DNA from: Candidatus Cloacimonadota bacterium
GTDB taxonomy: Bacteria; Cloacimonadota; Cloacimonadia; Cloacimonadales; TCS61
NCBI GenBank assembly: GCA_021736135.1
Contig: JAIPGO010000006.1
Location: forward strand, 1 to 64,000
Direction of reading: 5' to 3'
DNA length: 64,000 bases
The notes below the pieces were generated by a model. It searched no databases. It was not told the origin of the DNA and saw only the letters and a list, made by a program, of their open reading frames with translations. Shown here in pieces: positions 3,440-64,000 of the stretch. Both the position numbers and the translations under genes were made by a program. Numbering within the stretch: position 1 is the stretch's first letter; the number at the start of each line of letters is the position of its first letter.

Positions 3440-4777
3440 ATGCGTATTATAGTAATTGATGATGAATATAATATCTGTTCCAGCTTGAAGGATATTCTGG
3501 AAGACGAAGGTTATCAGGTGGAAACCTGTATGGAATCACGAAAAGCTTTGGAAGAGGTTCGCAGATTTCAGCCAGCTATCATACTTCTTGACGTGCGTCT
3601 GGATTATTTTAACGGTATCGATCTACTGGAGCAGTTCAAAAAGGAATTTCCACAGATCCAGGTGATTATGATATCAGGGCACAGCGGCATTAAGGAAGCA
3701 GTGAAAGCAATACAACTGGGTGCTCTTGATTTTCTGGAAAAACCGCTTTCTTTACATAAGGTGCGCATTGCTGTGCAGAATGCTATTAAGCTGGCAAAGA
3801 TGAGCAACAGTTATCACCGCCTGAAAGAACAGGTTGACCGTAAATATGAGATCATCGGCAACAGCATGGCTATTAACCAGATACGTAAACTTATCGATCG
3901 CGTAGCTCCTACGGAAGCCAAGGTACTCATTCGCGGGGAAAGCGGTACCGGTAAAGAACTCATCGCTTATGGTATTCATAACCAGAGCAGCCGCGCCAAT
4001 GGAACTTTTGTAAAATTCAATTCTGCTGCTATTCCCAATGAATTGATCGAATCTGAACTCTTTGGGTATGAAAAGGGCGCTTTCACGGGAGCAAATAAAT
4101 CCAAACCAGGTAAAGTGGAAGAAGCAGACGGCGGTACATTATTCTTTGATGAAATAGGTGATATGACTTTAAATGCCCAGGCAAAGATCCTGCGGCTGAT
4201 CCAGGAAGGTGAATTTGAAAGACTGGGAGATAATAAAACCCGTAAAATAGATATCCGCATCCTTGCTGCCACGCATCAGGATCTGGAAAAAATGGCAGCA
4301 AACGGCTCCTTCCGCGAAGATCTGTATTACCGGCTCAATGTTTTACCCATTACCTCTCCTGCTCTACGTGACAGACCTGAAGATATTCCGCTGCTTCTGG
4401 ATCATTTCGCAGCTCAGATTGCCGAGGAGCAAGGCATTTCACAGAAAACTTTTCAGCCACAGGCAAAAGTGAAATTATCCGGTCAGTCTTTCCCTGGCAA
4501 CGTGCGTCAACTTCGCAATCTGGTGGAAAGGTTATATATCCTCACCGATGGACAGGAAATAACTGTTGCCGACCTGGAACTGGTTCTGCTTGATCAGAAA
4601 GATAAAGATTTCTGGAATGAAACTGTAGATTTTAAAATTAAAAAAAGAGATTTTGAAAAAAAGTATTTGACGAATCAACTGCGTTTGCATGATAATAATT
4701 TATCACAAACGGCAAGAGCACTGAACCTGCAGGTAAGTAATCTTTCCCGTAAACTGAAAGACCTGGAACTGGAATAA
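3440..4777 (+). CDS. NtrC-family sigma-54-dependent response regulator
   Basis: The 445-residue protein has a receiver domain (1-120) with the acidic pair D7-D8, phospho-acceptor D51 and a Lys in SLEKP position (EKPLS). A sigma-54-interacting AAA+ domain follows, with Walker A GESGTGKE at 166-173 and an intact GAFTGA loop at 213-218. The C-terminus (about 405-445) is a Fis-type helix-turn-helix (LSQTARALNLQVSNLSRKLK). The protein should oligomerise on phosphorylation, bind upstream sites and use ATP to open sigma-54 promoters. It is the obvious partner of the kinase just upstream. I found no convincing -24/-12 promoter in the window, so its targets are probably elsewhere or I missed them. sppA follows 19 bases later and may be in the same transcript. 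Confidence 0.92.
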   Translation: MRIIVIDDEYNICSSLKDILEDEGYQVETCMESRKALEEVRRFQPAIILLDVRLDYFNGIDLLEQFKKEFPQIQVIMISGHSGIKEAVKAIQLGALDFLEKPLSLHKVRIAVQNAIKLAKMSNSYHRLKEQVDRKYEIIGNSMAINQIRKLIDRVAPTEAKVLIRGESGTGKELIAYGIHNQSSRANGTFVKFNSAAIPNELIESELFGYEKGAFTGANKSKPGKVEEADGGTLFFDEIGDMTLNAQAKILRLIQEGEFERLGDNKTRKIDIRILAATHQDLEKMAANGSFREDLYYRLNVLPITSPALRDRPEDIPLLLDHFAAQIAEEQGISQKTFQPQAKVKLSGQSFPGNVRQLRNLVERLYILTDGQEITVADLELVLLDQKDKDFWNETVDFKIKKRDFEKKYLTNQLRLHDNNLSQTARALNLQVSNLSRKLKDLELE

Positions 4778-9189: not shown

Positions 9190-9281
9190 AAAGCACATAT
9201 CAGAGACAGCCACAACATAGCACAATCTAACAGAATAATGTTAGATTGTGCTATGTTGTGTCTGTCTCTGATATGTGCTTT
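9190..9281. repeat. 41-bp near-perfect inverted repeat (hairpin H1)
   Basis: Arms 9190-9230 and 9241-9281 are complementary except for one position (9210 against 9261), around a 10-base loop. It lies about 245 bases after the stop of the FG-GAP gene. It shares the ACAGCCACAACA...CACAAT arm sequence with the hairpin at 40.8 kb. It has no T-tract directly after it, so it is not a standard intrinsic terminator. Confidence 0.9.
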
Positions 9282-9315
9282 ACCTCTTCTATGGCTGTAA
9301 AGGGATATTTTGATA

Positions 9316-9340
9316 GCATTAGCAGGAGCTGATGCACTCC
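9316..9340 (-). repeat. Palindromic GGAGTGCATTAGC-type repeat, diverged copy
   Basis: Read on the minus strand this is GGAGTGCATCAGCTCCTGCT followed by AATGC, two changes from the commonest unit elsewhere in the window (for example 63966-63990). It is itself an imperfect palindrome. Confidence 0.75.
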
Positions 9341-9731: not shown

Positions 9732-9760
9732 TGCATTAATATGCTTAATGCACTCCAAAA
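9732..9760 (-). repeat. Palindromic repeat abutting a stop codon
   Basis: On the minus strand the unit starts directly after the TAA of the DUF2851 gene (TTTTGGAGTGCATTAAGC, then ATATTAATGCA). It resembles the right end of the 150-bp element at 34712-34861. It could serve as the hairpin at the 3' end of the DUF2851 transcript. Confidence 0.75.
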
Positions 9761-29947: not shown

Positions 29948-29980
29948 AAAGCCCGGACTTTTTGTCCGGGCTTTCTTTTT
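29948..29980 (+). terminator. Intrinsic terminator of hppA
   Basis: An 11-bp perfect stem (AAAGCCCGGAC, 29948-29958, with 29964-29974), a 5-T loop and a T-rich tail make this the clearest terminator in the window. The T-tail runs straight into a palindromic repeat. Confidence 0.93.
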
Positions 29981-30028
29981 GGAGTGCATTAGCTCCCGCT
30001 AATGCAACGAGCCGCAGGCGAGTGTCTT
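29979..30028 (+). repeat. Left half of the 150-bp palindrome-ended element
   Basis: This stretch starts TTGGAGTGCATTAGCTCCC and continues with GAGCCGCAGGCGAGTGTCTT, as in the full copies at 34712 and 38472. The remainder of the element is missing; unrelated sequence follows and then an IS630-like element 78 bases later. Confidence 0.85.
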
Positions 30029-30105
30029 TTCTATACGATTACCAGATTAATCACCTTCAATCGGAATTAGCAAAATGTATTCTGTCATCTTTATTATTTT
30101 ATTCA

Positions 30106-31252
30106 TACCAAACCGCTATCGATTATATGTAAATAGTTGACATATTTTTACGCGATATATAGTTGTCCTCGAGGTGAATATGAAAAGATTTAAAGTAAAT
30201 AGTTATCTGACAAATGAAGATCTACAAAAAAGGATCAAGAAAGAAAAGGCAGCTGATCAACTAAAAGTATGGCAATGTATATACTACATTCAAAACCATG
30301 ATGGTGTTTCAGCAGCGGATGTATCGGATACTTTTGGTTTATCGATACATTCCGTCTACAAATACGTTCAATCATATAATTTAAATGGAGTTGATGGTGT
30401 CCTTCTTAAGCAACGCGGTGGAAGAAGAAGGTTTTATCTGTCGCTGGAACAGGAAAGAGAATTATTGGACTCTCTTTCCCAAAAAGCATCAGAAGGATTG
30501 GTTTTGACCATGAATGATATACGAGATGAAATTGAATCTGCTATTGGCCATTCTATTTCTGATGACTATATATGGGATTTGCTCAATCGGCACAACTGGA
30601 AGAAAAAAGCGCTACGTCCAAAACATCCTGATCAAGATATGGAAAAACAAGAAGACTTTAAAAAAAAATTAAAGAAAACCTGGCAGCCGTCGAACTAACT
30701 TTCGATAACTCTTTCTCTGATAAGCCAATACTACTTTTTTTCAAGATGAAGGACGGTTTGGACGAATAAATACACTTCACCGAAGCTGGGTGCCAGCAGG
30801 AACTCGAGCTGTTGTTGGGAAACAGTTAATACGCCAATACACATATGCTACACAGCAGTTTGCCCTGAAACAGGAGAGACTTACTCCCTTATTTTACCTT
30901 ATGCTAACTCTGATTCGATGTCAATTTTCCTGGAAGAACTGAGTGAACACTATAGTCAAAATAGAATTATAATGGTAATGGATAACGCTAGTTGGCACTC
31001 AGCCAAATCAATGCCTGGTATACAAAACATCCGACCACTGTTTTTACCACCCAGGGCACCGGAACTAAATCCTGTAGAGTGCATCTGGCATCATATCAAA
31101 GAAAGGCATTTCAGTAACAGAGTTTTAAAAAGTATAAATGACGTAGAGCAAAGGCTTGTAACTGCATTAGCCGAATTGAATCAGGAAAAACCAAAAATAA
31201 GAAAGATGACTTATTTCAATTGTTTATGAATATAATTGATAGCGGTTTGGTA
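30106..31252 (+). mobile_element. IS630-family insertion sequence, decayed
   Basis: The element is bounded by inverted ends CCAAACCGCTATC-gATTATA (from 30108) and its complement ending at 31250, with one mismatch in about 20 bases. A TA dinucleotide sits directly outside each end, as expected from IS630 target duplication. Its size of about 1.14 kb suits the family. The single transposase gene inside is interrupted by frameshifts. It lies between hppA and the beta-helix gene and disrupts no visible gene. Confidence 0.92.
30180..31229 (+). pseudogene. IS630-family transposase with three frameshifts
   Basis: The N-terminal part, from the ATG at 30180 (gagg upstream), encodes the paired helix-turn-helix region (VSAADVSDTFGLSIHSVYKY, then DDYIWDLLNRHNWKKK). 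The reading frame must then change in a run of nine A at 30660-30668 to give KENLAAVELTFDNSF, again in a T-run at about 30734-30741 to give the first catalytic motif FQDEGRFG, and a third time near 30846-30850 to give AVCPETGETYSLILPYANSD. The last part holds MVMDNASWH and LNPVECIWHHIKER, the remaining DDE residues. All three changes are -1-like. A natural programmed shift could explain one, not three, so the gene is most likely dead, unless the homopolymer lengths are assembly errors. Confidence 0.88.
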
Positions 31253-31387: not shown

Positions 31388-34300
31388 ATGAAAAAGACGA
31401 TTCTGGCAATTTTTGTGTTGTGGGTACTGGCATATCCGGGTATCGGGAACGCTGAGGTAAAAATGAACATCACGGTATTAAATGATGAAATTACCCTGAA
31501 CAGAGACGTCATCTATGTTCCGGAAGATTACACAACCATCCAGGCAGCGATCAATATTGCTCAGAGCGGGGACGAAATCATCGTCTCACCGGGAATTTAT
31601 CAGGAGAATATCAATTTTAACGGTAAATCAATAATTGTAGGATCTTTGTTTTATGCGACAGGTGATCCCTACTACCTATCGCAGACAATCATTGATGGCA
31701 ATCAAAATGGAAATGTGGTCAGATTTGAAAATGGGGAAACTGCCACTGCTTTACTCACCGGATTTACCATTACTAACGGTTATGCCGATAGAGGAGGCGG
31801 GATATATTGTTATGCTGCGAGTCCGACTCTAAGTGATCTTATCATAGAAAACAATACTGCTTATCAATGGGATGGCGGAGGTATTTATATTCAGTATAAT
31901 GCTAATCCGCACCTTGTAAATGTAACAATACAAAACAATTCTGCAGAGCATGACGGAGGCGGTATTTTGTGCCGGGATTCCAATACGGTTCCGGTTTTAG
32001 AAAATGTAATGATCATTAATAATACTGCGAATAGAGAGGGTGGCGGCATATCTTGTCACACCGGATTGAACTTGAATAATGTGACAATTGCGTTTAATTC
32101 GGCTGATAATGCTGGAGGTGGCATCTATTGCAACGAGAATTCGTCAGTTGAATTCAACAATGAAAATCGCTGCAATATATATCTTAATAACACGATAATG
32201 CGCAGCAGCGGGAGTGATATATATTCAGAAGAAACAATCAGCGTCATTGTGGATACATTTACCGTGCTTAATCCTACTTCATTTCATGCCGCACCAAGAG
32301 AGAATTTTACTTTTGATATCCAACAGGGATTACTGGAGCAGGTAAATGCTGATCTTTACGTGTCACCGGATGGAAATAACGCCTCCAGCGGCTTAAGTCC
32401 AACCGAGCCACTGCAGACGATTCAATATGCCTGTTCCATTATAACAGCAGACAGTCTGAACCAGCGAACGATTCACCTGGCAGAAGGGATTTACAGTGCT
32501 TCGAACAATGGTGAGTTTTTTCCGGTAAGTTTACCTGATAATGTAATCCTGACAGGAGAAAATGAAAACACCGTAATACTGGATGCGGAAGGGCTTGCCG
32601 GCGTGATCAGAATGGATAATGCAGAAAATGTGACAATATCCGACCTGACAATTGAGAATGGGTATGCTGAACATGGCAGCGGGATATATTGCATTGGTTC
32701 TGATCCCATAATGGAAAATCTGATCATTAGAAATAATACTGGCTCTTATTATCTTTCCCGTGGTGGCGGAATATATATTGAATATGATTCTGCTCCTCTT
32801 CTGGAGAACCTGGTTATTGAAAATAATACCGCCTGCTTTGGTGGAGGTATATATATCGGATATAATATTAATGCCTCTCTGCACAATTTAATTATCCAGG
32901 GAAATTCAGTTACTTCTTCTGGTGGAGGAATATTATTACGCAGCTTTGTGGAAATGAATGAGATTGTGATCACAAATAATTATAGTGATAATAATGGTGG
33001 TGGAATAGCAATAGATAATACCAGTGCCAACCTGGATAATGTGAGAGTGGAAAACAATATTGCTGATTATGATGGAGGCGGGATATATATGTTTGATTCT
33101 ACTCCGAATATGGCAAATGTATCAATTACACACAATCAGGCAACTCAGGGAGGAGGAATTAGATTCCATGACTCCAGCCCGGTTTTCAGCAGCGTTAACC
33201 GCTGCAGTATTTACGATAACAATGCTTATGAACGTGGGAGTGGCAGCGACCTTTATTCGGAAAGCTATATTAGCGTTATTGTAGATACTTTTACGGTCAT
33301 TAATCCTACAGATTATCATGCCTGGCATATAGAGGATTTTGAGTTTGATATTCTACAAGGACTTTATGATCAGACATTCTCAGATATTTATGTTTCGCCG
33401 GATGGTGATAACAATAACAGCGGTTTAAGCGCAACAGAACCATTTCGGACGATTCAGCATGCCTGTTCAGTGATCTTGACGAATGAACATGAGCCGCAGA
33501 CAATATACCTGGCAGAGGGAATTTACAGTCCTTCAACAAATGGTGAGTGTTTTCCCTTATGCTTACCTGATTTTGTAAATCTGCAGGGATCCGGAGAGGA
33601 ACAGGTAATTCTGGAGGCAGAGGGTTTATCCCGGTTGATGTTCTTTAATGCTCATCAGAATAATACAATTTCTGATCTGACTCTCAGCGGGGGTAGAGCA
33701 CTTTTTGGCGGGGGCATTAACAGTTGGAGGTCAAGCCCGGTGTTTAAGAATGTGACTTTCCGGGATAATTCGGCAGAACTCGCTGGTGGCGGGATGTTCC
33801 TTAATGCGGAATCAAGTCCCCAACTGATCAACGTAACTTTTTATAATAATTCCAGCCTGGAGCAAGGCAGTGCTATCTCGTGCTCCTGTGGTTCAAATCC
33901 ATATTTAATTAACGTGACAATTGCTGATAATAATTGCGAAACCTCAGGCGCAGGTATCTATTGTGCCAATTCTCATCCAGTAATGGTAAACAGTATATTA
34001 TGGAATAACGATCCTTCAGAAGTCATGTTTGCAAATGGTTCAAATGATGAACCTAGTTCCTTCTCTCTGGGCTATTCGACCATCCTGGGAGGAGAGGTAT
34101 CAATAATTACTCAATCAAACGGAACAGTCAATTGGCTGGAAGGTAATATTGACTATGATCCTCTCTTTACGGATGCGGGAAATGGAGATTACAGCTTACA
34201 GAATGGATCACCTTGTATTGATGCCGGTACGGCTTATTTTGAATTTGATGGTGAGATACTGGTAAACCTGGAAGACGATGAATACTGGGGAACATCACCT

Positions 34301-34633
34301 GATATGGGAGCTTATGAATATTACCCCTCAGGAAATGAAGATGAAGAGCTTCCTGGCAGTAATATAAGCTTAAGTAATTATCCCAATCCCTTTAATCCGC
34401 GAACAACAATTCAGTTAAATCTTCCAGTCAGCACAAAGGCAGTTCTGGCAGTTTATAATACTAAGGGACAGCTGGTTAGGGAAATATATAAAGGCTACCT
34501 ATCTGCCGGCCAACATACATATGACTGGAATGGGGCTAACTCTTCAGGTTCAAGCCTGCCTTCGGGAATATACCTGATCAATTTCTCATCTCAAACGTCC
34601 CATACCAGTAAAAAAGTTCTTTTGTTGAAGTAG
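31388..34633 (+). CDS. Secreted right-handed parallel beta-helix protein with sorting tail
   Basis: The 1081-residue protein has a signal peptide and three internally related sections, each opening with a DUF1565-like strand pair: VPEDYTTIQAAINIAQSGDE at about 40, then YVSPDGNNASSG at about 320 and YVSPDGDNNNSG at about 665. Each is followed by many GGGIYC / ENNTA / NVTIQNNSA turns typical of beta-helix rungs, as in pectate-lyase-like folds and polymorphic outer membrane proteins. No catalytic cluster is evident, so adhesion or glycan binding is as likely as lyase activity. The end is a type A sorting tail (NYPNPFNPRTTIQLNL... GIYLINFSSQ). A promoter-like TTGACA lies at 31280-31285. The ribosome site is ggaggaag. 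Confidence 0.87.
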   Translation: MKKTILAIFVLWVLAYPGIGNAEVKMNITVLNDEITLNRDVIYVPEDYTTIQAAINIAQSGDEIIVSPGIYQENINFNGKSIIVGSLFYATGDPYYLSQTIIDGNQNGNVVRFENGETATALLTGFTITNGYADRGGGIYCYAASPTLSDLIIENNTAYQWDGGGIYIQYNANPHLVNVTIQNNSAEHDGGGILCRDSNTVPVLENVMIINNTANREGGGISCHTGLNLNNVTIAFNSADNAGGGIYCNENSSVEFNNENRCNIYLNNTIMRSSGSDIYSEETISVIVDTFTVLNPTSFHAAPRENFTFDIQQGLLEQVNADLYVSPDGNNASSGLSPTEPLQTIQYACSIITADSLNQRTIHLAEGIYSASNNGEFFPVSLPDNVILTGENENTVILDAEGLAGVIRMDNAENVTISDLTIENGYAEHGSGIYCIGSDPIMENLIIRNNTGSYYLSRGGGIYIEYDSAPLLENLVIENNTACFGGGIYIGYNINASLHNLIIQGNSVTSSGGGILLRSFVEMNEIVITNNYSDNNGGGIAIDNTSANLDNVRVENNIADYDGGGIYMFDSTPNMANVSITHNQATQGGGIRFHDSSPVFSSVNRCSIYDNNAYERGSGSDLYSESYISVIVDTFTVINPTDYHAWHIEDFEFDILQGLYDQTFSDIYVSPDGDNNNSGLSATEPFRTIQHACSVILTNEHEPQTIYLAEGIYSPSTNGECFPLCLPDFVNLQGSGEEQVILEAEGLSRLMFFNAHQNNTISDLTLSGGRALFGGGINSWRSSPVFKNVTFRDNSAELAGGGMFLNAESSPQLINVTFYNNSSLEQGSAISCSCGSNPYLINVTIADNNCETSGAGIYCANSHPVMVNSILWNNDPSEVMFANGSNDEPSSFSLGYSTILGGEVSIITQSNGTVNWLEGNIDYDPLFTDAGNGDYSLQNGSPCIDAGTAYFEFDGEILVNLEDDEYWGTSPDMGAYEYYPSGNEDEELPGSNISLSNYPNPFNPRTTIQLNLPVSTKAVLAVYNTKGQLVREIYKGYLSAGQHTYDWNGANSSGSSLPSGIYLINFSSQTSHTSKKVLLLK

Positions 34634-34684
34634 TGAAGACGGGAGTCGTGAGTAGTTTCTCGTAATTCGTAATTAGTAATTCGT
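34634..34684. repeat. Degenerate GTGAGTCGTAATTCG array
   Basis: Short units CGTGAGTAG, CGTAATTCG, TAGTAATTCG follow the stop codon directly. They are related to the arrays at 27.17, 43.61, 48.6 and 62.33 kb. Confidence 0.6.
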
Positions 34685-34713
34685 AGGGGCGAATAATTAT
34701 TCGCCTCTTTTTT
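34685..34713 (+). terminator. Likely intrinsic terminator of the beta-helix gene
   Basis: The 10-bp stem (AGGGGCGAAT with ATTCGCCTCT, one G-U pair), AATT loop and a six-T tail at 34708-34713 fit an intrinsic terminator about 50 bases after the stop. The T-tail merges with the left end of the 150-bp element. Confidence 0.8.
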
Positions 34714-34861
34714 GGGAGTGCATTAGCTCCTGCTAATGTAACGAGCCGCAGGCGAGTGTCTTCGTTTTACGGTGTCAGATAATCTCGCGACTTCTTAGTA
34801 CTAATCAGAGCTTTGGCATCGGCTTTCGCCAATGCATTAAGTATTCTTAATGCACTCCAAA
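34712..34861 (+). repeat. 150-bp palindrome-ended element, copy A
   Basis: The element starts TTGGGAGTGCATTAGCTCC and ends CTTAATGCACTCCAA. Inside it shares GAGCCGCAGGCGAGTGTCTT, CAGATAATCTCG, GACTTCT and TGGCATCGGCT with copy B at 38472-38621, in the same order and orientation and with the same total length. Its outer ends are inverted repeats. An extra fragment of the internal part (GGCAGGCGAGTGTCTT) follows at 34864-34879, directly before the end of the ATPase gene. It encodes nothing and has the form of a MITE. Confidence 0.88.
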
Positions 34862-34882
34862 ACGGCAGGCGAGTGTCTTAAA

Positions 34883-37201
34883 TCACGACTTATATTTCAC
34901 CGCCATCTCGTTGATTTTATCAATAATCTCTTCTACAGTTTGTTTAAGTTCGCCACCCATTTTGATATATTCATTGGGATATTCTTTTTGCAGGAAAAAC
35001 ATCAAAGCGTAATATAAAGGTTTGAACCTGTCTTTCAACTGAAACGGATTTTCGTTAAATATCTTTAAAGCTGAGTTATATTGCTTTTTTGCAATCAGAA
35101 GCATCAGAAATTGACTGATGTCTTCAGGAAATTTATCATAAGCTTCCTGTGAAACCAAAAATTCCTTTGAAATTGCTAAAGATTCTTCTATTTCATTATT
35201 CCAGAGAAGTATGGAGGCATAAGTATAGGCAATTTGGCAATCTTTATCTAAATTCCATAGTTTTTCTGCATACTTAAGAGCTTTCTTTTTATTTAAAATA
35301 TTTTCATATAACATTCGCGATAGTGTATTTAATGCCCCATCTGCACCATTTTCATCTGCCATAAGATAATATTTCTCAGCTTTATTGAACTCTTGGAATT
35401 CTATTTGATATAGAATAGCTAAACTAAACATTCCTTCCGGGATATTATGGTCAATAGCCTTTAAGTAATGCTTTATAGCTTTCTCAAAGTCTTTAAACTC
35501 AGAATGATACAAATAACCCAGATAAAAAATTGAAGTTGTACATCCTTTTTTGATAGCTAATTTATAATATCTTTCTGCTTTTTCTTTGTCCTTGAATTCT
35601 CGGTGATACAATAAACCTAAAGATTCTATTACTTCTACATCACCCATTTCTTCAGCTTCTTTGTAATAAGCTTCGGCCCTAATAGGAGCATGGTGTTTAA
35701 ATCCATAGAATGCTCCAAGTGCTTTCAGTTCATCTATTGTCTTCTTTCTAATTTTCTCAATATAAGAGAATGAATCTTCAATTTTGTTTTGCATATAAAG
35801 ATTTGTAGCAATTTCTTTTAACTCACTATCGGAATATTCAAGGTTCTTTTCATAGTCTGATTCTCTCAGACTTGAATATGATCTCTTTGCTTTGAACATC
35901 TGATCTTGCAGTTCTCTATTTATTGGAGTTCGAGCCAAAGCCTCTGTCATATAGTAGGCACGTTTTTCACAAACCAATCCACTTTGGAAATCATCGATAA
36001 GTTTCCTTGCCTTGTACTCAAGAGTTCCTTTATCACACCAAACCTGTAAAAATTCGACCAGCCATTTAACTTTGTTCTCTTCTTTTTTACCACCATGACG
36101 CATAAGGTACCAGATATTAAAAAATCTTTCTGACAAACGGTAATAGTTATTCTTGGTATTTGTATCCTGTACTTCGATTAAGTTGTTTTTTACCAGTAGC
36201 TTGAGTTGAGCAGAAACAGCTTTACTTTGTTCCTTTGTTTTTTGGGAGATTTCTTTCGTACTGACAGCATCCCAGCTTAAGGCGATGAAATCAACAATTT
36301 CCTGCTGTTGAGCCGAAAGGCTATCCATGCGATGTTTGTATAAAGGAGTAACTTTATCTAAAACATTTTCCAGGTCGTTGAAAGCATTCCCATCTTCTTC
36401 ATCCACGAAAATATTGAAAAGCAGGATGAGTGTTCTAATAACTCCACCGGTTAACCGTCTTAGTGCTTCTATGCGTCCAGGTTGTTCAGTAACTATTTCC
36501 TTTACTTTATTACTTTTATAGAGTTCACCTAATTTCAGAAGCAAGTTATTAGTTTCCTGAATTGACAAACCTTTAAGCTGGGGCATGCGGAAAAATTGAT
36601 AGAAAGGTTTGTCATATTCATGATGAAATTCCAGCATGAGAGAAGAAGCCCCAATAAACCTGATTTCCGCTGTTTGAATGAGAACTTCCCGCAACCGCTG
36701 ACATTCTTTTTTCGTAAATTTATCGAGCATATCATTGATATTGTCAATGAAGAGTACTAATTTCTTTTTTTCCTTTTTCAACCTGTTTTCCAGTAAAAGA
36801 AAACAATTCTGTTCATAATCATCATCAACAGTCAGGTTTTGCATCTTTTCATATAAATCACCAAAACCAGGCTGTTCATGCAAATATTCAGCGGTTAATT
36901 CCCAGAGCTTGAATAATTTGCGGACACTGTACTGTTCCTCGCTAAAAACCACAGGAAGCAACCATTTATTCAAGTCCTGGTCAATCTGAATTTCGTAAGC
37001 AAGACGCCACAGAAAAGTTGTTTTACCTTGTCCCCGAATTCCCTGAATTATGTAGTGCTGAACCTGATGTTTCATATCAGAAGATTGAATTTCCTGAAAA
37101 ATTTCGTGAAACAATTCCAGCCTGACCACAAAGCTGTCTATGAGTTCCTGCCTTGTCTGACTTGCAGGATTGTATATTGCCGGTAGATCAATTCGCGACA
37201 T
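34883..37201 (-). CDS. STAND-like ATPase with winged helix and Sel1/TPR-like repeats
   Basis: I use the ATG of MSRIDLPAIYNPASQ, which has ggtgga upstream and overlaps the previous gene by 14 bases; longer versions read through that gene's end. The 772-residue protein has a P-loop GIRGQGKTT (54-62), a Walker B-like LVLFIDNINDML (about 160), a sensor-like RFIGASSLML, and then a winged helix (VSTKEISQKTKEQSKAVSAQLKLL, about 310-335). The C-terminal half is a row of helical pairs with Sel1-like spacing (AEAYYKEAEEMGD, AERYYKLAIKKGC, AIKHYLKAIDHN, AEKYYLMADENGA). This is the layout of signal-transduction ATPases that sense something through repeats. No effector domain (nuclease, TIR, protease) is visible. 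The pair of ATPases looks AT-richer than its surroundings. Function unknown; regulation, transport quality control or anti-phage defence are all possible. Confidence 0.75.
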   Translation of the reverse strand: MSRIDLPAIYNPASQTRQELIDSFVVRLELFHEIFQEIQSSDMKHQVQHYIIQGIRGQGKTTFLWRLAYEIQIDQDLNKWLLPVVFSEEQYSVRKLFKLWELTAEYLHEQPGFGDLYEKMQNLTVDDDYEQNCFLLLENRLKKEKKKLVLFIDNINDMLDKFTKKECQRLREVLIQTAEIRFIGASSLMLEFHHEYDKPFYQFFRMPQLKGLSIQETNNLLLKLGELYKSNKVKEIVTEQPGRIEALRRLTGGVIRTLILLFNIFVDEEDGNAFNDLENVLDKVTPLYKHRMDSLSAQQQEIVDFIALSWDAVSTKEISQKTKEQSKAVSAQLKLLVKNNLIEVQDTNTKNNYYRLSERFFNIWYLMRHGGKKEENKVKWLVEFLQVWCDKGTLEYKARKLIDDFQSGLVCEKRAYYMTEALARTPINRELQDQMFKAKRSYSSLRESDYEKNLEYSDSELKEIATNLYMQNKIEDSFSYIEKIRKKTIDELKALGAFYGFKHHAPIRAEAYYKEAEEMGDVEVIESLGLLYHREFKDKEKAERYYKLAIKKGCTTSIFYLGYLYHSEFKDFEKAIKHYLKAIDHNIPEGMFSLAILYQIEFQEFNKAEKYYLMADENGADGALNTLSRMLYENILNKKKALKYAEKLWNLDKDCQIAYTYASILLWNNEIEESLAISKEFLVSQEAYDKFPEDISQFLMLLIAKKQYNSALKIFNENPFQLKDRFKPLYYALMFFLQKEYPNEYIKMGGELKQTVEEIIDKINEMAVKYKS

Positions 37202-38342
37202 ATTTCCACCACCACATCTTGAGTATTGGAGAATTAAACCTGTATGTCTTAAGGTTATCATCATTATTGATGTAGCCATCATACACTAAAGTGCCGAGAA
37301 TATTTTTATATTCATTTTCAATATTATATTTAACCGCCAGATTATAAACTTCATTACTTTCAATATATCCGAATTCAGAGATAATATTGAGCAGCTCTTT
37401 TGCATAATTATATAACTCAGGATTCTTCGGATTTTTCAAGCGGGTATGCCAATGCTCAAAGTAGTGCTTTTGCTCGATCATTTCCTGAAAAGCCTTATCA
37501 ATAATCGATTCTGAAATCACAGTCAATCCTTCTTCCCTTTTTATCTCCTTGAGAGCGAACATAGTCAATTGAATATAAAAGGGAATTAGCCACTCAATCT
37601 CATTAAGCATATAATCAATTATATTGTCTTCTATCGTGAATTCCAATTTTTCCAGAAGAAGTGTAATCATTTTTTTTGCATCAATACTGCTGAATGGTTT
37701 GATTTTTATGGGAGTGATATCATTTATAGTTGCAATAGCATTCAAACTTTCGACTATACATTCCAAGCCGATAGATCCGGAATATACAAAGAGAATTTTA
37801 TCTGACAAAGTTTGCCTCAAACCTCTGTTCGTCTGCAAAAAGTGTATTGCATTCTTTTCTCCTTCGCACTCTCTGATATTTTCTACAGTTTGAGAAAACT
37901 CATCTAAAAGAAAAATCAGCTTATTTTCTCCTAAATCAATAAGGTTAATTACTCTTGTAAATTCAGATAAATAATCTACTTTATTTGTTAAATCAAATTC
38001 AACACCGTCTGTTCCAACTTTTTTTATTGCTGGAATGCTGTTTTTGATCTGAGTTAAAATTTTATCTTTCGTTTTAAGATAATCAGACGAAAGCAATTTT
38101 GATAATAATCTCCGGTAATACTCATTTTCGTTATTGACTGATTCATTTTCTAAAAAAAGAAAATAGAAATTATCTCGCGGATTATCCTTTAGATAATACA
38201 TCAAAGAAGATTTTCCAACTCTTCTGGGTGCTACCAATAAAATGTGATTTCCTGATGCTAATACTTCCCAGACTTTATCAATTAAATTCTGCCTGGCAAA
38301 ATAATTCTCACCTCTAACAATGCTTCCAGTATTAATAATCAT
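37188..38342 (-). CDS. AAA/STAND-like ATPase, upstream partner
   Basis: The start is taken at the ATG of MIINTGSIVRG, with aaagagg 6 bases upstream; 12 further in-frame codons upstream lack a ribosome site. The 384-residue protein opens with VRGENYFARQNLIDKVW, then Walker A APRRVGKSS (38-46), Walker B LIFLLDEFSQ (about 160) and a sensor segment ILFVYSGSIGLE. A winged-helix-like C-terminal region follows (about 300-384). The family (ATP-binding proteins with the APRRVGKSSL P-loop) is widespread in bacteria and archaea, often in variable genome regions, and is poorly understood. Its 3' end overlaps the second ATPase gene, so the two are translationally coupled and may act together. A perfect 19-bp palindrome lies about 40 bases upstream of the start. 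Confidence 0.8.
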   Translation of the reverse strand: MIINTGSIVRGENYFARQNLIDKVWEVLASGNHILLVAPRRVGKSSLMYYLKDNPRDNFYFLFLENESVNNENEYYRRLLSKLLSSDYLKTKDKILTQIKNSIPAIKKVGTDGVEFDLTNKVDYLSEFTRVINLIDLGENKLIFLLDEFSQTVENIRECEGEKNAIHFLQTNRGLRQTLSDKILFVYSGSIGLECIVESLNAIATINDITPIKIKPFSSIDAKKMITLLLEKLEFTIEDNIIDYMLNEIEWLIPFYIQLTMFALKEIKREEGLTVISESIIDKAFQEMIEQKHYFEHWHTRLKNPKNPELYNYAKELLNIISEFGYIESNEVYNLAVKYNIENEYKNILGTLVYDGYINNDDNLKTYRFNSPILKMWWWKYVAN

Positions 38343-38382
38343 AATTTCCTCTTTATGAAAACTTACTGCGCCAATCATTTTG

Positions 38383-38425
38383 GCAAAAGATATTTTGTCA
38401 ACTTATTTGACAAAATATCTTTTGC
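38383..38425. promoter_or_regulatory. Perfect 19-bp inverted repeat before the ATPase operon
   Basis: GCAAAAGATATTTTGTCAA (38383-38401) and its exact complement (38407-38425) are separated by 5 bases. It lies 40-80 bases upstream of the first ATPase ATG on the minus strand and contains TTGACA boxes on both strands (TTGTCAA and TTGACAA), so it overlaps any promoter there. An operator for a dimeric regulator, perhaps one of the winged-helix ATPases itself, or a transcript hairpin, are the two readings. Confidence 0.85.
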
Positions 38426-38471
38426 TATCTTAGATATCATGTTCGTAATGGCTGGTGACGGCTTAAATATT

Positions 38472-38621
38472 TTGGAGTGCATTAGCTCCCGCTAATGCAA
38501 CGAGCCGCAGGCGAGTGTCTTTGTTTTAACTTGGCAGATAATCTCGAGACTTCTGAGTGGAAATCCAGGCTGTGGCATCGGCTGACGCCGATTGCATTAG
38601 CGGGAGCTAATGCACTCCAAA
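38472..38621 (+). repeat. 150-bp palindrome-ended element, copy B
   Basis: The terminal inverted repeats are perfect over 29 bases (TTGGAGTGCATTAGCTCCCG at the left end, with its complement at the right end). The interior matches copy A at 34712 in order, orientation and length. The two copies lie on either side of the ATPase pair as direct repeats. Confidence 0.92.
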
Positions 38622-38688
38622 TGCCCAAAACTTGACAATCAGGTAACCTGGTTATTTTTAGCTGTAAAAGTTTAAGGATTGTAAGGTA

Positions 38689-40566
38689 TTGGCTAAAAAT
38701 ATAATATCTATAGAAAAACTGGTTAAGGCTTATTCAGAGAAGAAAATCTGTGTGGAAGCTTCTTTCGGGATTCATGAGAATGAAAAGATCGGTTTGATCG
38801 GGATCAATGGGTGCGGAAAATCCACTTTTCTCAAAATGCTGGTCGGCAGAGAAGCACCTGATTCCGGGGCAATAGTTTTTCGTAAAGGTATTAAAATCGG
38901 TTATCTGACGCAAATCCCGGAGCTTGATCCTGAACTTAATATTTATGAACAGATATATTACAGTGATAATCCCAAATATCGGCTATTGCGTAAATATCAT
39001 GAATTCAGTTTAAAGTTGCAATCTGCAGAAGTGCGCACGCAGCAGATGCTGGAACAGCAGCAGCAGCTTATTCTGGAGATAGATGCTGTGCAGGGCTGGG
39101 ATATTGAGAACCGGGCGCGCAAGTTTTTAAGTATTTTCGGATTTACTGACCTGACGTTGAATACAGGCATACTTTCCGGTGGTCAGAAACGGCGGATCGA
39201 TCTGGCTCGCGTTTTGATGGATGAACCGGATCTTATTATCCTTGATGAGCCGACCAATCATCTGGATGTGGACATCATTGAATGGCTGCAGCAGTATATG
39301 GTTGATTTTAAAGGCACAATCATCTTCGTAACGCATGACCGCTATTTTCTGGATTCCGTAGCTAACCGCATCATGGATATTGATAATGGTATAATCCGTT
39401 TTTATGATGGCAATTACAGCTTTTACCTGCAGAAGAAGGAAATCGAGAATAGTGAAATGGTGAACATGGAAAACCGCAAGCAGGCACAGTTAAAAAAAGA
39501 AATACGCTGGCTGCAGCGGAGAGCCAGGGCACGCAGTACAAAACCGAAAAGCCATCTTGACCGCGTGAAAGAACTGATCGATAAATCTTACCTGGTCTCT
39601 AATGCGGAACTGGATATTTCCTTTCAAACACAGAGACTGGGAAAAACGATATTGAATGTGAAGAATGTGGGAAAAAGTTACGGTGAAAACCGGTTATTTG
39701 AGAAGTTTTCGCATAATTTTCAGAAGATGGAGCGGATAGGTATAATAGGTGCCAACGGATGCGGAAAGACAACGCTGCTGCGTTTGATAGCAGGTGAAGA
39801 AATGCCTGACGAAGGTTCGATCAAGGCAGGATTAAATACGAAATTCGCTTATTTCCATCAGGAAGAACAGAACTTTGACCCGGAACAGAAGGTAATAGAC
39901 TATATCCGTGATTTTGCGGAACATATACGCACCAAAGATGGCGCTCTGCATTCCGCTTCCGAAATGCTGGAAAAATTCCTGTTTGACGGCAAACTGCAGC
40001 AATCAAAACTGAAATCACTTTCCGGAGGGGAAAAAAAGAGACTTTTTCTGCTTTCCTCTCTGATGTTCGGCGCTAATTTCATTATCCTGGATGAGCCGAC
40101 CAATGACCTGGACATCCGCACTCTGGAAATTCTGGAAGATTACTTGGATGCCTTTAAAGGCTGCATACTCACCGTTTCGCATGACCGCTATCTGCTGGAC
40201 CGCGTGGTGGATTATCTGATCATTTTCACTCCAAAAGGCATTATCAAATTTCCTGGTAATTATTCCGATTACCTACTGGTGAAAAGATTCCGCGAAGAAG
40301 AAGAAGCCGAAAAAAGAGAACAGCCGGCGGCTAAAACAGATAACAAACCACGTAAAATGGGATATATGCAGAAGCGTAAACTGGAACAGATCGAAATGGA
40401 GATTGATAATTTGGAAAAAGAATCTGTAGAACTGGAAAAACAGATCAACGAAAATGCAGCAAACATGAATGCTTCTGATTTTCAGAATAATACTGACAGA
40501 CAGGAAGAAATAAATAAGCTTTTGGATGAACTTGAGGAGAGGTGGCTTTTTTTAATTGATAATTGA
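38689..40566 (+). CDS. ABC-F family ATPase (Uup/translation factor type)
   Basis: The 625-residue protein starts at a TTG with taaggt just upstream. It has two ATP-binding cassettes and no membrane segments. Cassette 1 has GINGCGKS, LSGGQKRR and LDEPTNHLD; cassette 2 has GANGCGKT, LSGGEKKR and LDEPTNDLD. The linker between them holds a basic coiled segment (RWLQRRARARSTKPKS, about 262-277), and a charged C-terminal coiled coil (about 565-615) resembles Uup. Such proteins act on the ribosome in the cytoplasm, rescuing stalled elongation or conferring resistance to ribosome-targeting antibiotics, or in the case of Uup bind branched DNA. The last residues (FLIDN) are encoded by an AATTGAT repeat tract, which also supplies the TGA stop. 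Confidence 0.92.
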   Translation: MAKNIISIEKLVKAYSEKKICVEASFGIHENEKIGLIGINGCGKSTFLKMLVGREAPDSGAIVFRKGIKIGYLTQIPELDPELNIYEQIYYSDNPKYRLLRKYHEFSLKLQSAEVRTQQMLEQQQQLILEIDAVQGWDIENRARKFLSIFGFTDLTLNTGILSGGQKRRIDLARVLMDEPDLIILDEPTNHLDVDIIEWLQQYMVDFKGTIIFVTHDRYFLDSVANRIMDIDNGIIRFYDGNYSFYLQKKEIENSEMVNMENRKQAQLKKEIRWLQRRARARSTKPKSHLDRVKELIDKSYLVSNAELDISFQTQRLGKTILNVKNVGKSYGENRLFEKFSHNFQKMERIGIIGANGCGKTTLLRLIAGEEMPDEGSIKAGLNTKFAYFHQEEQNFDPEQKVIDYIRDFAEHIRTKDGALHSASEMLEKFLFDGKLQQSKLKSLSGGEKKRLFLLSSLMFGANFIILDEPTNDLDIRTLEILEDYLDAFKGCILTVSHDRYLLDRVVDYLIIFTPKGIIKFPGNYSDYLLVKRFREEEEAEKREQPAAKTDNKPRKMGYMQKRKLEQIEMEIDNLEKESVELEKQINENAANMNASDFQNNTDRQEEINKLLDELEERWLFLIDN

Positions 40567-62432: not shown

Positions 62433-63977
62433 ATGAAATATAAAAAAGCTTTATTGCTGATCCTGGATGGGTTTGGCATTAATACATCGGATTATGGGAA
62501 TGCTATTGCAGCAGCGCATAAACCGAATTATGATAAATATATTAATGAAAATCAGCATAACCAGTTGCTTGCCTGCGGCAGACCGGTGGGTTTACCGGAT
62601 GGGATCATGGGTAATTCGGAAGTAGGACACATGAATATCGGTGCCGGAAGAACCGTGTGGCAGTTAAATACTTTCATTGATAATGAGATTGAACAAGGTA
62701 CTTTTTTTGCCAATAAAGCTTTGAATGACGCGGTTGAGCATTGTCTGAAAAATGACAGCAGTCTGCATCTGTTCGGGCTTTTATCTGATGGTAATGTGCA
62801 TAGTAATAATGTGCATCTCTGGGCAATATTGGAACTTGCCGCCCGGAAAGGCATAAAAAATGTATTTCTGCATGCTTTTATGGATGGAAGGGATACTTTG
62901 CCTCATAGCGGAAAGGAATTTCTGGCAGAAGCGGAAGAGAAAATGCAGAAAATCGGCACAGGAAAAATTGCCTCCGTCAGTGGCAGATATTATGCCATGG
63001 ATCGTGATAACCGCTGGCAAAGAGTGTCTAAAGCCTATAATGCCATCGTGAATGGTGATGGCGAAAAATTCGGGAGTGCTGCCGAAGCAATTGAAGCAAG
63101 TTATGCCAAAGATATAACCGATGAATTCGTTTTACCTTGCCTCATTACCGAAAACGGTGAACCTGTGGCAACTGTCGAAGATAACGACAGCATCATTTTT
63201 TTCAATTTCAGGGCAGACCGGGCAAGAGAACTGACCCGCTGTTTTATAATGCACGATTTCGCTCATTTTCCGGTTAAGAAATTCCAAAACCTGAAATATG
63301 TTACCTTTAGTGAATATGACATAGAATTTAGTGGTCTGGTGGAAGTAGCTTTTCCTCCGCATAAACTCAAGAAAATTCTGGGCGAAGTGGTTTCTGATCT
63401 GGGATTGCAGCAGTTACGCCTGGCAGAAACTGAAAAATATGCCCATGTGACCTTCTTTTTTAATGGCGGAGTGGAAAAACCTTTTGCAGGTGAAGAACGG
63501 ATAATGGTTCCTTCACCCAAAGTGGCAACCTATGATCTGCAGCCGGAAATGAGCGCTTTTGGCGTGAAAGATAAACTCGTGGAAGCACTGACTTCCGGTA
63601 AATATTCTCTGATCATTACCAATTTTGCCAATCCCGATATGGTCGGGCATACAGGCGTTTTCCCGGCAGCGGTAAAAGCAGTGGAAACAGTTGATAAATG
63701 CCTGGGAGAAGTGATCCCGGCTGCAATAGCAAATGATTACAACGTAATACTCATCGCCGATCACGGAAATGCCGATGAAATGCTGGATAAAGACGGCAAT
63801 ATTCTCACCCAGCACAGCACCAATCCCGTGCCGGTGATCATTTCACTGCGGGATATTGAAAATTATCAGGTAAAATCCGGCAAACTGGCAGATGTGGCAC
63901 CAACCATCTTAAAGATAATGGGCATACCAATACCTCAGGAAATGACGGGAGAAGTGCTGATTTATGGAGTGCATTAG
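62433..63977 (+). CDS. gpmI: 2,3-bisphosphoglycerate-independent phosphoglycerate mutase
   Basis: I start at MKYKKALLLILDGFG, with gagg 7-9 bases upstream; an ATG four codons earlier overlaps that ribosome site. The 514-residue enzyme has the metal-binding LILDGFG near the start, the phosphoserine nucleophile Ser62 in MGNSEVGHMNIGAGR, MDGRDTLPHSG and the GRYYAMDRDNRW segment, and the C-terminal metal ligands in FANPDMVGHTG and ADHGNADEM with the following QHSTNPVPV. It interconverts 3- and 2-phosphoglycerate in glycolysis using Mn2+. The final codons GGA-GTG-CAT-TAG are part of a palindromic repeat that continues past the stop, so the true ancestral C-terminus may have been slightly different. 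Confidence 0.95.
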   Translation: MKYKKALLLILDGFGINTSDYGNAIAAAHKPNYDKYINENQHNQLLACGRPVGLPDGIMGNSEVGHMNIGAGRTVWQLNTFIDNEIEQGTFFANKALNDAVEHCLKNDSSLHLFGLLSDGNVHSNNVHLWAILELAARKGIKNVFLHAFMDGRDTLPHSGKEFLAEAEEKMQKIGTGKIASVSGRYYAMDRDNRWQRVSKAYNAIVNGDGEKFGSAAEAIEASYAKDITDEFVLPCLITENGEPVATVEDNDSIIFFNFRADRARELTRCFIMHDFAHFPVKKFQNLKYVTFSEYDIEFSGLVEVAFPPHKLKKILGEVVSDLGLQQLRLAETEKYAHVTFFFNGGVEKPFAGEERIMVPSPKVATYDLQPEMSAFGVKDKLVEALTSGKYSLIITNFANPDMVGHTGVFPAAVKAVETVDKCLGEVIPAAIANDYNVILIADHGNADEMLDKDGNILTQHSTNPVPVIISLRDIENYQVKSGKLADVAPTILKIMGIPIPQEMTGEVLIYGVH

Positions 63978-63991
63978 CTCCCGCTAATGCA
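63966..63991 (+). repeat. Palindromic GGAGTGCATTAGC repeat overlapping the gpmI stop
   Basis: GGAGTGCATTAGCTCCCGCT, followed by AATGCA, is identical to the left end of the 150-bp element copy B. The TAG at 63975-63977 inside it is the stop codon of gpmI. Whether the rest of the element follows is beyond the window. Confidence 0.9.
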
Positions 63992-64000
63992 AGAAAACGC

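Follow-up and report, generated by a model that had tools for sequence, protein, structure and literature searches.

A putative tandem operator and two overlapping STAND-type ATPase genes form a module carried by about ten phyla

Introduction

STAND (signal transduction ATPases with numerous domains) proteins usually carry an effector domain at either end (PMC6468293), although one is not required; they are characterised by an inducer-driven ADP/ATP switch and by multimerisation. This paper concerns two genes for such ATPases, here called A and B, that lie next to each other in a 64,000-nucleotide stretch of DNA (the window) from a Candidatus Cloacimonadota bacterium (positions 1 to 64,000 of contig JAIPGO010000006.1, assembly GCA_021736135.1). 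We report that a 22-bp palindrome repeated at a 27-bp period accompanies the two genes in groups as different as Cloacimonadota, Clostridium, Campylobacterota and Bacteroidota. What is well established is a module made up of a putative operator, A and B, whose geometry appears fixed across about ten phyla. If the module works as we propose below, the pair would be a self-contained, transferable switch with a named DNA site, a candidate reader and a candidate sensor. It would also offer a way to learn how STAND proteins that lack effector domains work, and whether the ORC (origin recognition complex)-like core of proteins of the NLR (nucleotide-binding leucine-rich repeat) type reads DNA.

Several described systems resemble parts of this locus. 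B shares with regulators of the PH0952/MalT type the order of ATPase core, winged helix and TPR-like superhelix (PMC6468293), and the PH0952 structure 6mfv was the best Foldseek match of B by E-value (5e-11). However, the whole arrangements fail to superpose (template-modelling score 0.20), 6mfv lay outside the best 50 entries of a second fold comparison, the A/B system has a second ATPase, and no effector domain was seen before the core of B. The model of A aligned over its whole length with two archaeal proteins of the ATPase_2 type, PABY2304 (2qen; Z 25.2, root-mean-square deviation (rmsd) 3.5, 329 residues) and SSO1545 (2fna; Z 24.3, rmsd 3.8, 336 residues), but is just 17% identical to them, and we know of no TPR-STAND partner or operator array for either. 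Orc1/Cdc6 initiators and TnsC-like AAA+ proteins are similar to A and B in the fold of the core and winged helix, and in having DNA sites that adjoin the genes; in contrast to them, the A/B sites overlap promoter-like boxes of their own operon, and no origin or transposon genes were recognised alongside. The plant NLR Rx1 has a STAND core related to Cdc6/Orc1 and binds and deforms DNA, yet it is an immune receptor with other domains, and the part of its account available (PMC4599002) describes no sequence-specific operator, whereas A and B have a putative one. Finally, the antiphage STAND proteins Avs and bNACHT resemble B in combining a STAND core with a C-terminal repeat sensor. They usually have N-terminal effector domains (PMC10907252), while none was seen in A or B, and here two STAND proteins are paired. 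No account of the A/B pair or its operator was found in the open-access literature, which was covered mostly as titles and the starts of abstracts.

Results

The features of the pair are listed below, with positions counted from the first letter of the window.

37188..38342, minus strand: gene A, a 384-residue ATPase with a STAND/ORC-like core only (nucleotide-binding, helical and winged-helix domains, NBD-HD-WHD); start set by homology
34883..37201, minus strand: gene B, a 772-residue ATPase of the STAND type that combines a winged helix with a TPR/Sel1 superhelix; 14-bp overlap with A
36089..36334, minus strand: winged-helix region of B, residues 290-371, candidate operator reader; K327 and Q332 invariant (n=43)
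34928..36031, minus strand: TPR/Sel1 superhelix of B, residues 391-758, candidate sensor
38407..38428, minus strand: putative operator palindrome 1, at -86 from the start of A, 3 mismatches to TTGACAA-N8-TTGTCAA, found by inverted-repeat search
38380..38401, minus strand: putative operator palindrome 2, at -59 from the start of A, 1 mismatch, 27 bp from palindrome 1

The open reading frame (ORF) of A extends to 38378, and homology sets its start at 38342. A preliminary description of this DNA had presented the two genes as coupled ATPases that look AT-richer than their surroundings, do not recur in the window and show no effector domain, and had compared them with STAND-type ATPases with helical repeats. 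The STAND type and the AT-richness were confirmed, and no effector domain was seen in good models. GC content is 33.7% in the pair, compared with 41.6% in the remainder of the window. The 4.14-Mb genome has a single copy of A and also of B, if weak matches between the repeat region of B and a further protein are set aside.

Absent from that description were the two 22-bp palindromes directly upstream of A. The motif was found by an inverted-repeat search upstream of A, and its consensus is TTGACAA-N8-TTGTCAA. Across 51 loci (the window and 50 of 52 loci from public genomes, L086 and L088 being without upstream DNA), a perfect copy was present in 14, a copy with at most one mismatch in 42, with at most two in 50 and with at most three in all 51. 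At up to two mismatches, 99 sites were counted in 10,191 bp of upstream DNA versus 6 in 739,101 bp elsewhere, and none within 300 bp after B in loci where B is known. Dinucleotide shuffling of the upstream regions (200 rounds) gave a mean of 0.21 sites and a maximum of 2. Spacing was regular: 48 of the 59 site-to-site distances were 27 bp, eight were 54, one was 81 and two had other values. With weaker copies counted, the 27-bp chains hold two copies in 33 loci, three in 14, four in 2 and one in 2. L067 and L218, which lay outside the discovery set, also show the arrangement, each with a pair of 1-mismatch sites at a distance of 27 bp.

The sites overlap promoter-like boxes in a manner that depends on the group. 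In 12 of 13 Campylobacterota loci and all six from Clostridium/Tepidibacter, the half-site TTGACA serves as a -35-like box and is followed 17 bp on by a TATAAT-like box (at most two mismatches in total). In 9 of 15 loci from the KSB1/Calditrichota/Desulfobacteraceae group, a TATATT-like -10 box lies inside the palindrome and has its own -35 box upstream, and in three of four Bacteroidota loci TAnnTTTG is found at the downstream junction. The palindrome is thus kept while the surrounding promoter changes, so it is more than a promoter. As a rule, operators in bacteria diverge rapidly, yet this palindrome and its period are shared between distant carriers of the pair.

The pair is widely but unevenly distributed. 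In a search of 117 genomes, including the window's own, 23 matched A at E <= 0.001. Besides the own copy, six genomes have 43-60% identity over most of A and one has a 67-residue fragment at 51%; the relatives listed (43 of the 117 in one comparison, 30 of 30 in another) belong to genera other than that of the window. A scan of public genomes yielded 52 A loci from about ten phyla, as judged by record title. Carriers by this measure are Cloacimonadota, Neomarinimicrobiota, KSB1, Calditrichota, Desulfobacteraceae and relatives, Campylobacterota, Clostridium/Tepidibacter, Bacteroidota, Gammaproteobacteria, Chitinispirillaceae and one Actinomycetota bin. A tree of A proteins follows phyla only in part. 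The window copy joins the Cloacimonadota copy L080 (support 96/89), while another Cloacimonadota copy, L111, is far from the others; a Psychrobium copy falls within Campylobacterota, and Thermodesulfobacteriota appear in two places. Since bins can be contaminated, not much should be read into an isolated odd placement.

B is the gene immediately 3′ of A in 47 of the 52 loci, and the other five are cut by a contig end. The genes overlap by 14 bp in 35 of these 47 and by 11 bp in 5; in the remaining 7, where other values were obtained, either the start of the longest ORF is ambiguous or there is a small gap. No third gene is conserved: what neighbours are shared can be put down to local synteny in Clostridium or to widespread families, ABC ATPases among them. 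The pair occupies unrelated places across its carriers. Its GC content is below that of the flanks in all 38 loci with enough flanking sequence. AT-richness therefore characterises the module itself and does not prove that it arrived here recently. On these comparisons, the pair appears to be a horizontally spread, patchy two-gene module that is kept together. In L124, L127 and L129, B is open but A is broken up into two or three ORFs, by decay or sequencing error.

Both proteins have a STAND core. In A, G43, K44, D147 and E148 of the Walker A and Walker B motifs are invariant (n=42), as are G57, G59, K60 and D153 in B (n=43). The models (mean predicted local distance difference test score (pLDDT) 91.4 for A and 88.7 for B; predicted template-modelling score 0.57 for B) place a STAND/ORC-type core with winged helix at about residues 4-371 of B and a TPR/Sel1 superhelix at 391-758, whereas A consists of the core alone, so that only B has the C-terminal repeat sensor typical of STAND proteins. 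In fold comparisons, the cores of both match archaeal ATPases, ORC, CED-4 and NLRs (against CED-4, residues 8-384 of A and 12-378 of B gave Z about 17-20), and residues 391-758 of B match TPR superhelices. The winged helix of B has weak-to-moderate matches to MarR, LexA, ArsR-like and Csa3/CasR models (residues 288-384 in the window copy). Its recognition helix, which contains the two invariant residues listed above, has a mean column entropy of 0.86 versus 1.31 over the core. Among the 39 complete B proteins, the shortest has 507 residues and the longest 1170. Two of them are identical at 381 of their first 455 residues yet are 1156 and 903 residues long, which indicates that the repeat array changes fast.

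No Pfam family matched the window A at E <= 0.001. Of 42 A proteins, 23 gave a match to ATPase_2 (PF01637) at E <= 1, with 5.8e-10 as the best value, but ATPase_2 was not among the six families listed for the window A. All 43 B proteins matched nSTAND_NTPase5 (PF25199) at E <= 0.01; the window B, at 28.8 bits and E 1.2e-6, stays below the gathering score of 34 bits. We also considered mad8 of the MADS system (PADLOC), which gave best E-values of 2.7e-7 for A (28 of 42 proteins) and 7.2e-7 for B (40 of 43), with partial matches for the window copies. This identity was rejected because there is no conserved third gene and because the neighbouring mad2 matches followed up are general methyltransferases and the mad3 matches (two of three) ABC ATPases, in different loci. 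No effector domain was seen in A or B by Pfam, NCBIfam, PADLOC, sequences of the Protein Data Bank or fold comparison, among the matches listed. Low-scoring NCBIfam labels, AvrBs1 for instance (15.2 bits, cut-off 400), were dismissed as chance. In the model of B, the core starts at about residue 4 and the repeat fold reaches about residue 758 of 772, which leaves no visible room for a separate terminal effector domain.

Distant pairs have arrays of their own. Pairs on Moraxella osloensis plasmids, at 28-33% identity, are preceded by three 22-bp near-palindromes that start at -87, -60 and -33, again with a 27-bp period, in which TTRACTA replaces TTGACAA. Two still more distant Cloacimonadota pairs (L066 and L068, about 25% identity) have tandem AACGAATTCGTT-like palindromes with a period of about 16 bp, as judged by eye, which suggests that operator arrays are a wider feature of such ATPase pairs.

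In 25 of 25 carrier genomes, the tandem array was located at the pair by coordinates, and further array matches had 3 mismatches, like the control, with the exception of two with 2 mismatches (G122 and G129). The first of these (L210, at about 4490-4580, in the genome that also holds L101) comprises an operator array, promoter, ribosome-binding site and, by eye, first codons with no A gene, and is probably the remnant of a lost second copy. The other is an operator-like tandem inside the coding sequence of a small protein (L211, 4800-5219) that has a winged helix like that of B (E 8.6e-12); genes resembling ParA and ParB lie near it. A wider regulon through single sites with 2 mismatches was also considered, but counts against the backward control were 33/41 in the window's own genome, 84/43 in G117 and 33/107 in G124; being above control in some genomes and below it in others, they are uninformative.

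The neighbours of the distant Moraxella pairs include defence-related genes. On pNP7-2, the pair is followed by genes for PRTase-CE, ORC-CDC6-like, CARF and methylase proteins, and four of the five downstream products (dUTPase included) are found again on p4 under identical accessions. Only on pNP7-2 is the pair preceded by Qat genes and a kinase. On pSKB0120-2, a PD-Lambda-4/Avs4-like ATPase follows it. For orthologous pairs, 119 of 216 selected neighbours were scanned, a set from which four of the five Clostridium genomes and some very short or long proteins were left out. A strong match to a retron-type ATPase-Toprim protein was found beside one Sulfurimonas pair, along with single Cas6, Csx1, Cas12f-like and type I restriction matches among the scanned neighbours; a viperin match proved to be a radical-SAM protein. 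On plasmids of Sphingobium (L215) and Agrobacterium (L135), B-like STAND proteins adjoin nucleotide cyclase genes, and the Sphingobium plasmid also has a gene of a Pycsar effector family.

Discussion

We consider it rather probable that the locus is a copy of a self-contained, horizontally spread and autoregulated two-protein STAND switch, composed of the tandem operator, A and B. The pairing, the geometry of the putative operator, its overlap with promoter-like boxes, the differing half-site of distant pairs and the patchy spread all emerge from comparison and are consistent with this reading, and it is comparison that supports autoregulation of the pair by its own products. The rest of the scheme (operator binder, repression, formation of a hub, ligand and defence role) we infer. 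At rest, ADP-bound A and B would sit as dimers on the 22-bp palindromes 27 bp apart, likeliest through the ArsR/MarR-like winged helix of B. The occupied palindromes would overlap the operon promoter and expression would stay low. Sensing of a ligand by the TPR/Sel1 superhelix of B would lead to nucleotide exchange and open the cores, upon which the opened complex would leave or remodel the operator, expression would rise and a hub of A and B would form. As no effector domain can be recognised in A or B, the output would have to be produced by the ATPase hub, acting on DNA in the manner of ORC- or TnsC-like proteins, or by a host protein that the hub recruits. The likeliest job of such a switch would be the sensing of invaders.

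The differing half-site of distant pairs is what one would expect if the pair encodes the reader; the winged helix of A itself may also contribute to reading the site. Several points weigh against the autoregulated switch or limit it. The reader could be A, B or both: the Moraxella proteins keep the recognition helix of B (SKTVSAQL) despite their different half-site, so the core of this helix does not reveal which residue reads the difference. The motif was defined on the loci in which it is counted, and only two loci and Moraxella are independent of it; moreover, the three Moraxella plasmids come from one species, share flanks and are not independent of each other. The sites in the window itself are weaker, having 3 mismatches in one and 1 in the other, and they are accompanied by a poor -10-like box. 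The pair is also rare, with matches (E <= 1e-20) in 2 of 298 sampled genomes of the phylum of the Sulfurimonas carrier, one of them the query's own. In addition, five Clostridium genomes share the neighbours of the pair, which indicates that it can stay in place for long.

A defence role for this switch meets further objections. The neighbours of orthologous pairs are mostly housekeeping genes (119 scanned), and each defence model matched at most 3 of the 119 at 1e-15 (best 25 of 33 families). Phage records gave no match to the one Sulfurimonas A query, and IMG/VR contigs gave no confirmed relative. Because defence genes adjoin the pair in Moraxella but housekeeping genes elsewhere, and neither phage records nor viral contigs gave a confirmed relative, we regard a defence role as plausible only, and somewhat short of probable.

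This raises the question of whether the pair could instead be a signal-responsive regulator of a housekeeping or stress function, with its own operon as the main target. The mostly metabolic neighbours, the domain order of B that recalls MalT/PH0952-type regulators, the canonical look of its winged helix and the constant neighbourhood in five Clostridium genomes would all suit such a regulator. However, one would then have to account for a patchy distribution across phyla and rarity in samples, for the lack of a partner gene in common, and for 25 genomes in which no second operator-controlled gene was found. On balance, we think this unlikely. The autoregulated switch could also be taken further, into a new class of effector-less immune switch with DNA as its output, carried intact across about ten phyla, in which A and B would assemble on the phased array and, on sensing an invader, move to other DNA as a nucleoprotein filament; the sites would then be both off-switch and assembly template. 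We view this extended form as a speculation with little likelihood.

The pair was originally noticed by the repeats around it. The preliminary description had placed the two genes between two direct, palindrome-ended elements of 150 bp that occur elsewhere only in part, and this stands, with slightly revised ends:

34711..34861, plus strand: left REPIN-like element, two inverted REP-like units and a spacer; a host repeat, probably outside the module
38470..38622, plus strand: right REPIN-like element; a host repeat, probably outside the module

The two elements are in direct orientation and are 84% alike across 123 nt without gaps and 81% alike over their full length. In a search of the whole genome, the full element was covered at these two places only, and a 24-nt interior pattern (up to 3 mismatches) was likewise found in these two elements only, with 0 matches for the backward control. 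An interior that both copies share and that is found nowhere else suggests that one copy derives from the other. The remaining matches are partial, mostly 30-50 nt ends among the matches listed, and the ends belong to a repeat family that is matched at least 90 times in the genome (a first look gave 61 candidates and 40 of them were scored, making 90 a lower bound). In this repeat, a palindrome with a GGAG tag, TGCATTAGC-NNNN-GCTAATGCA, precedes a second hairpin; by eye and without a count, the copies compared seem to differ in the stem of that hairpin by compensating changes. The inverted arms of the right element are 44 nt long and complementary at 86%. A GGAG tag is a mark of REP (repetitive extragenic palindromic) repeats, and a tagged palindrome with a second hairpin is what we take to be REP/REPIN anatomy. 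With GGAG-TGCATTAGC tagged palindromes, many genomic copies and an inverted pair in each element, the 150-bp elements resemble REP/REPIN repeats (PMC3733652, PMC3116915, PMC2817692). For such repeats one would look for a cognate tyrosine transposase gene flanked by the repeat itself; none could be assigned to exactly this family among the nine Y1_Tnp matches of the genome (eight above the Pfam cut-off), and the exact repeat was beside none of the nine within flanks of 1.5 kb. One of the nine, a Y1-transposase gene at 836-2196 of L074 (G000:C26), is surrounded by seven palindromes of a sibling family, GGAGTACATTAAG, five of them before the gene at a spacing of about 141 bp.

The preliminary description had further proposed that the pair is a mobile cassette mobilised by these elements, which could occur through a REP-type transposase or by recombination between direct copies. 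The idea of a two-gene cassette holds in so far as the pair has a patchy distribution over different phyla and its genes stay together; movement by the 150-bp elements is not supported. In its favour, the bracket fits the module closely, with 21 bp between the end of B and the left element and 41 bp between the operator and the right one, the only full-length copies found in the genome are those that flank the pair, and a Y1-transposase gene with a sibling repeat around it is present. On the other hand, copies that are 81-84% alike are not recently duplicated ends, and A and B are the only ORFs of at least 90 residues between the elements, so there is no transposase gene inside. The intergenic gaps around the pair are only about 250 and 346 bp, in which any intergenic repeat would lie close to the genes. 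Mobility through the elements is not supported, since ten contigs that carry related A genes lack the exact palindrome core, the pair occurs in unrelated places and the repeat is genome-wide. We therefore give the proposal little credence; the elements are best read as host repeats in two short intergenic gaps, and the repeats that drew attention to the pair are probably incidental to its genes.

An origin- or partition-like element, with the sites as iterons and A and B as ORC/Cdc6-like initiators of an integrated or lost replicon, would fit tandem palindromes that adjoin ORC-like ATPases, cores that match Orc1/Cdc6 (and in A also TnsC structures) and plasmid carriage in Moraxella, but is scarcely credible given that most loci lie among metabolic genes (chromosome and plasmid not being distinguished), that the sites overlap group-dependent -35/-10-like boxes of the operon and that 33 of 51 loci have just two sites.

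Additional observations

No Rfam family reached its gathering score at 33500-39500 of the window. The left beta-helix gene adjoins the ABC-F gene in none of 19 relative loci (flanks of up to 1.5 kb), and the one match to it in relative loci covers the C-terminal domain only. Further repeats were seen in the window. A REP-like half element at 29977-30029 is identical over 53 nt to the right element, and next to it, at 30174-31229, is an apparent broken IS630-type transposase gene (ORFs of 174 and 103 residues). At 9200-9271 there is an inverted repeat that by eye resembles a miniature inverted-repeat transposable element, with 32-nt arms and one mismatch, and REP-like palindromes were noted by eye near it, at about 9312-9339 and 9733-9755. 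Four REP-like palindromes with an 87-bp period begin at the end of the window (63962-63992) and continue to G000:C90:64253.

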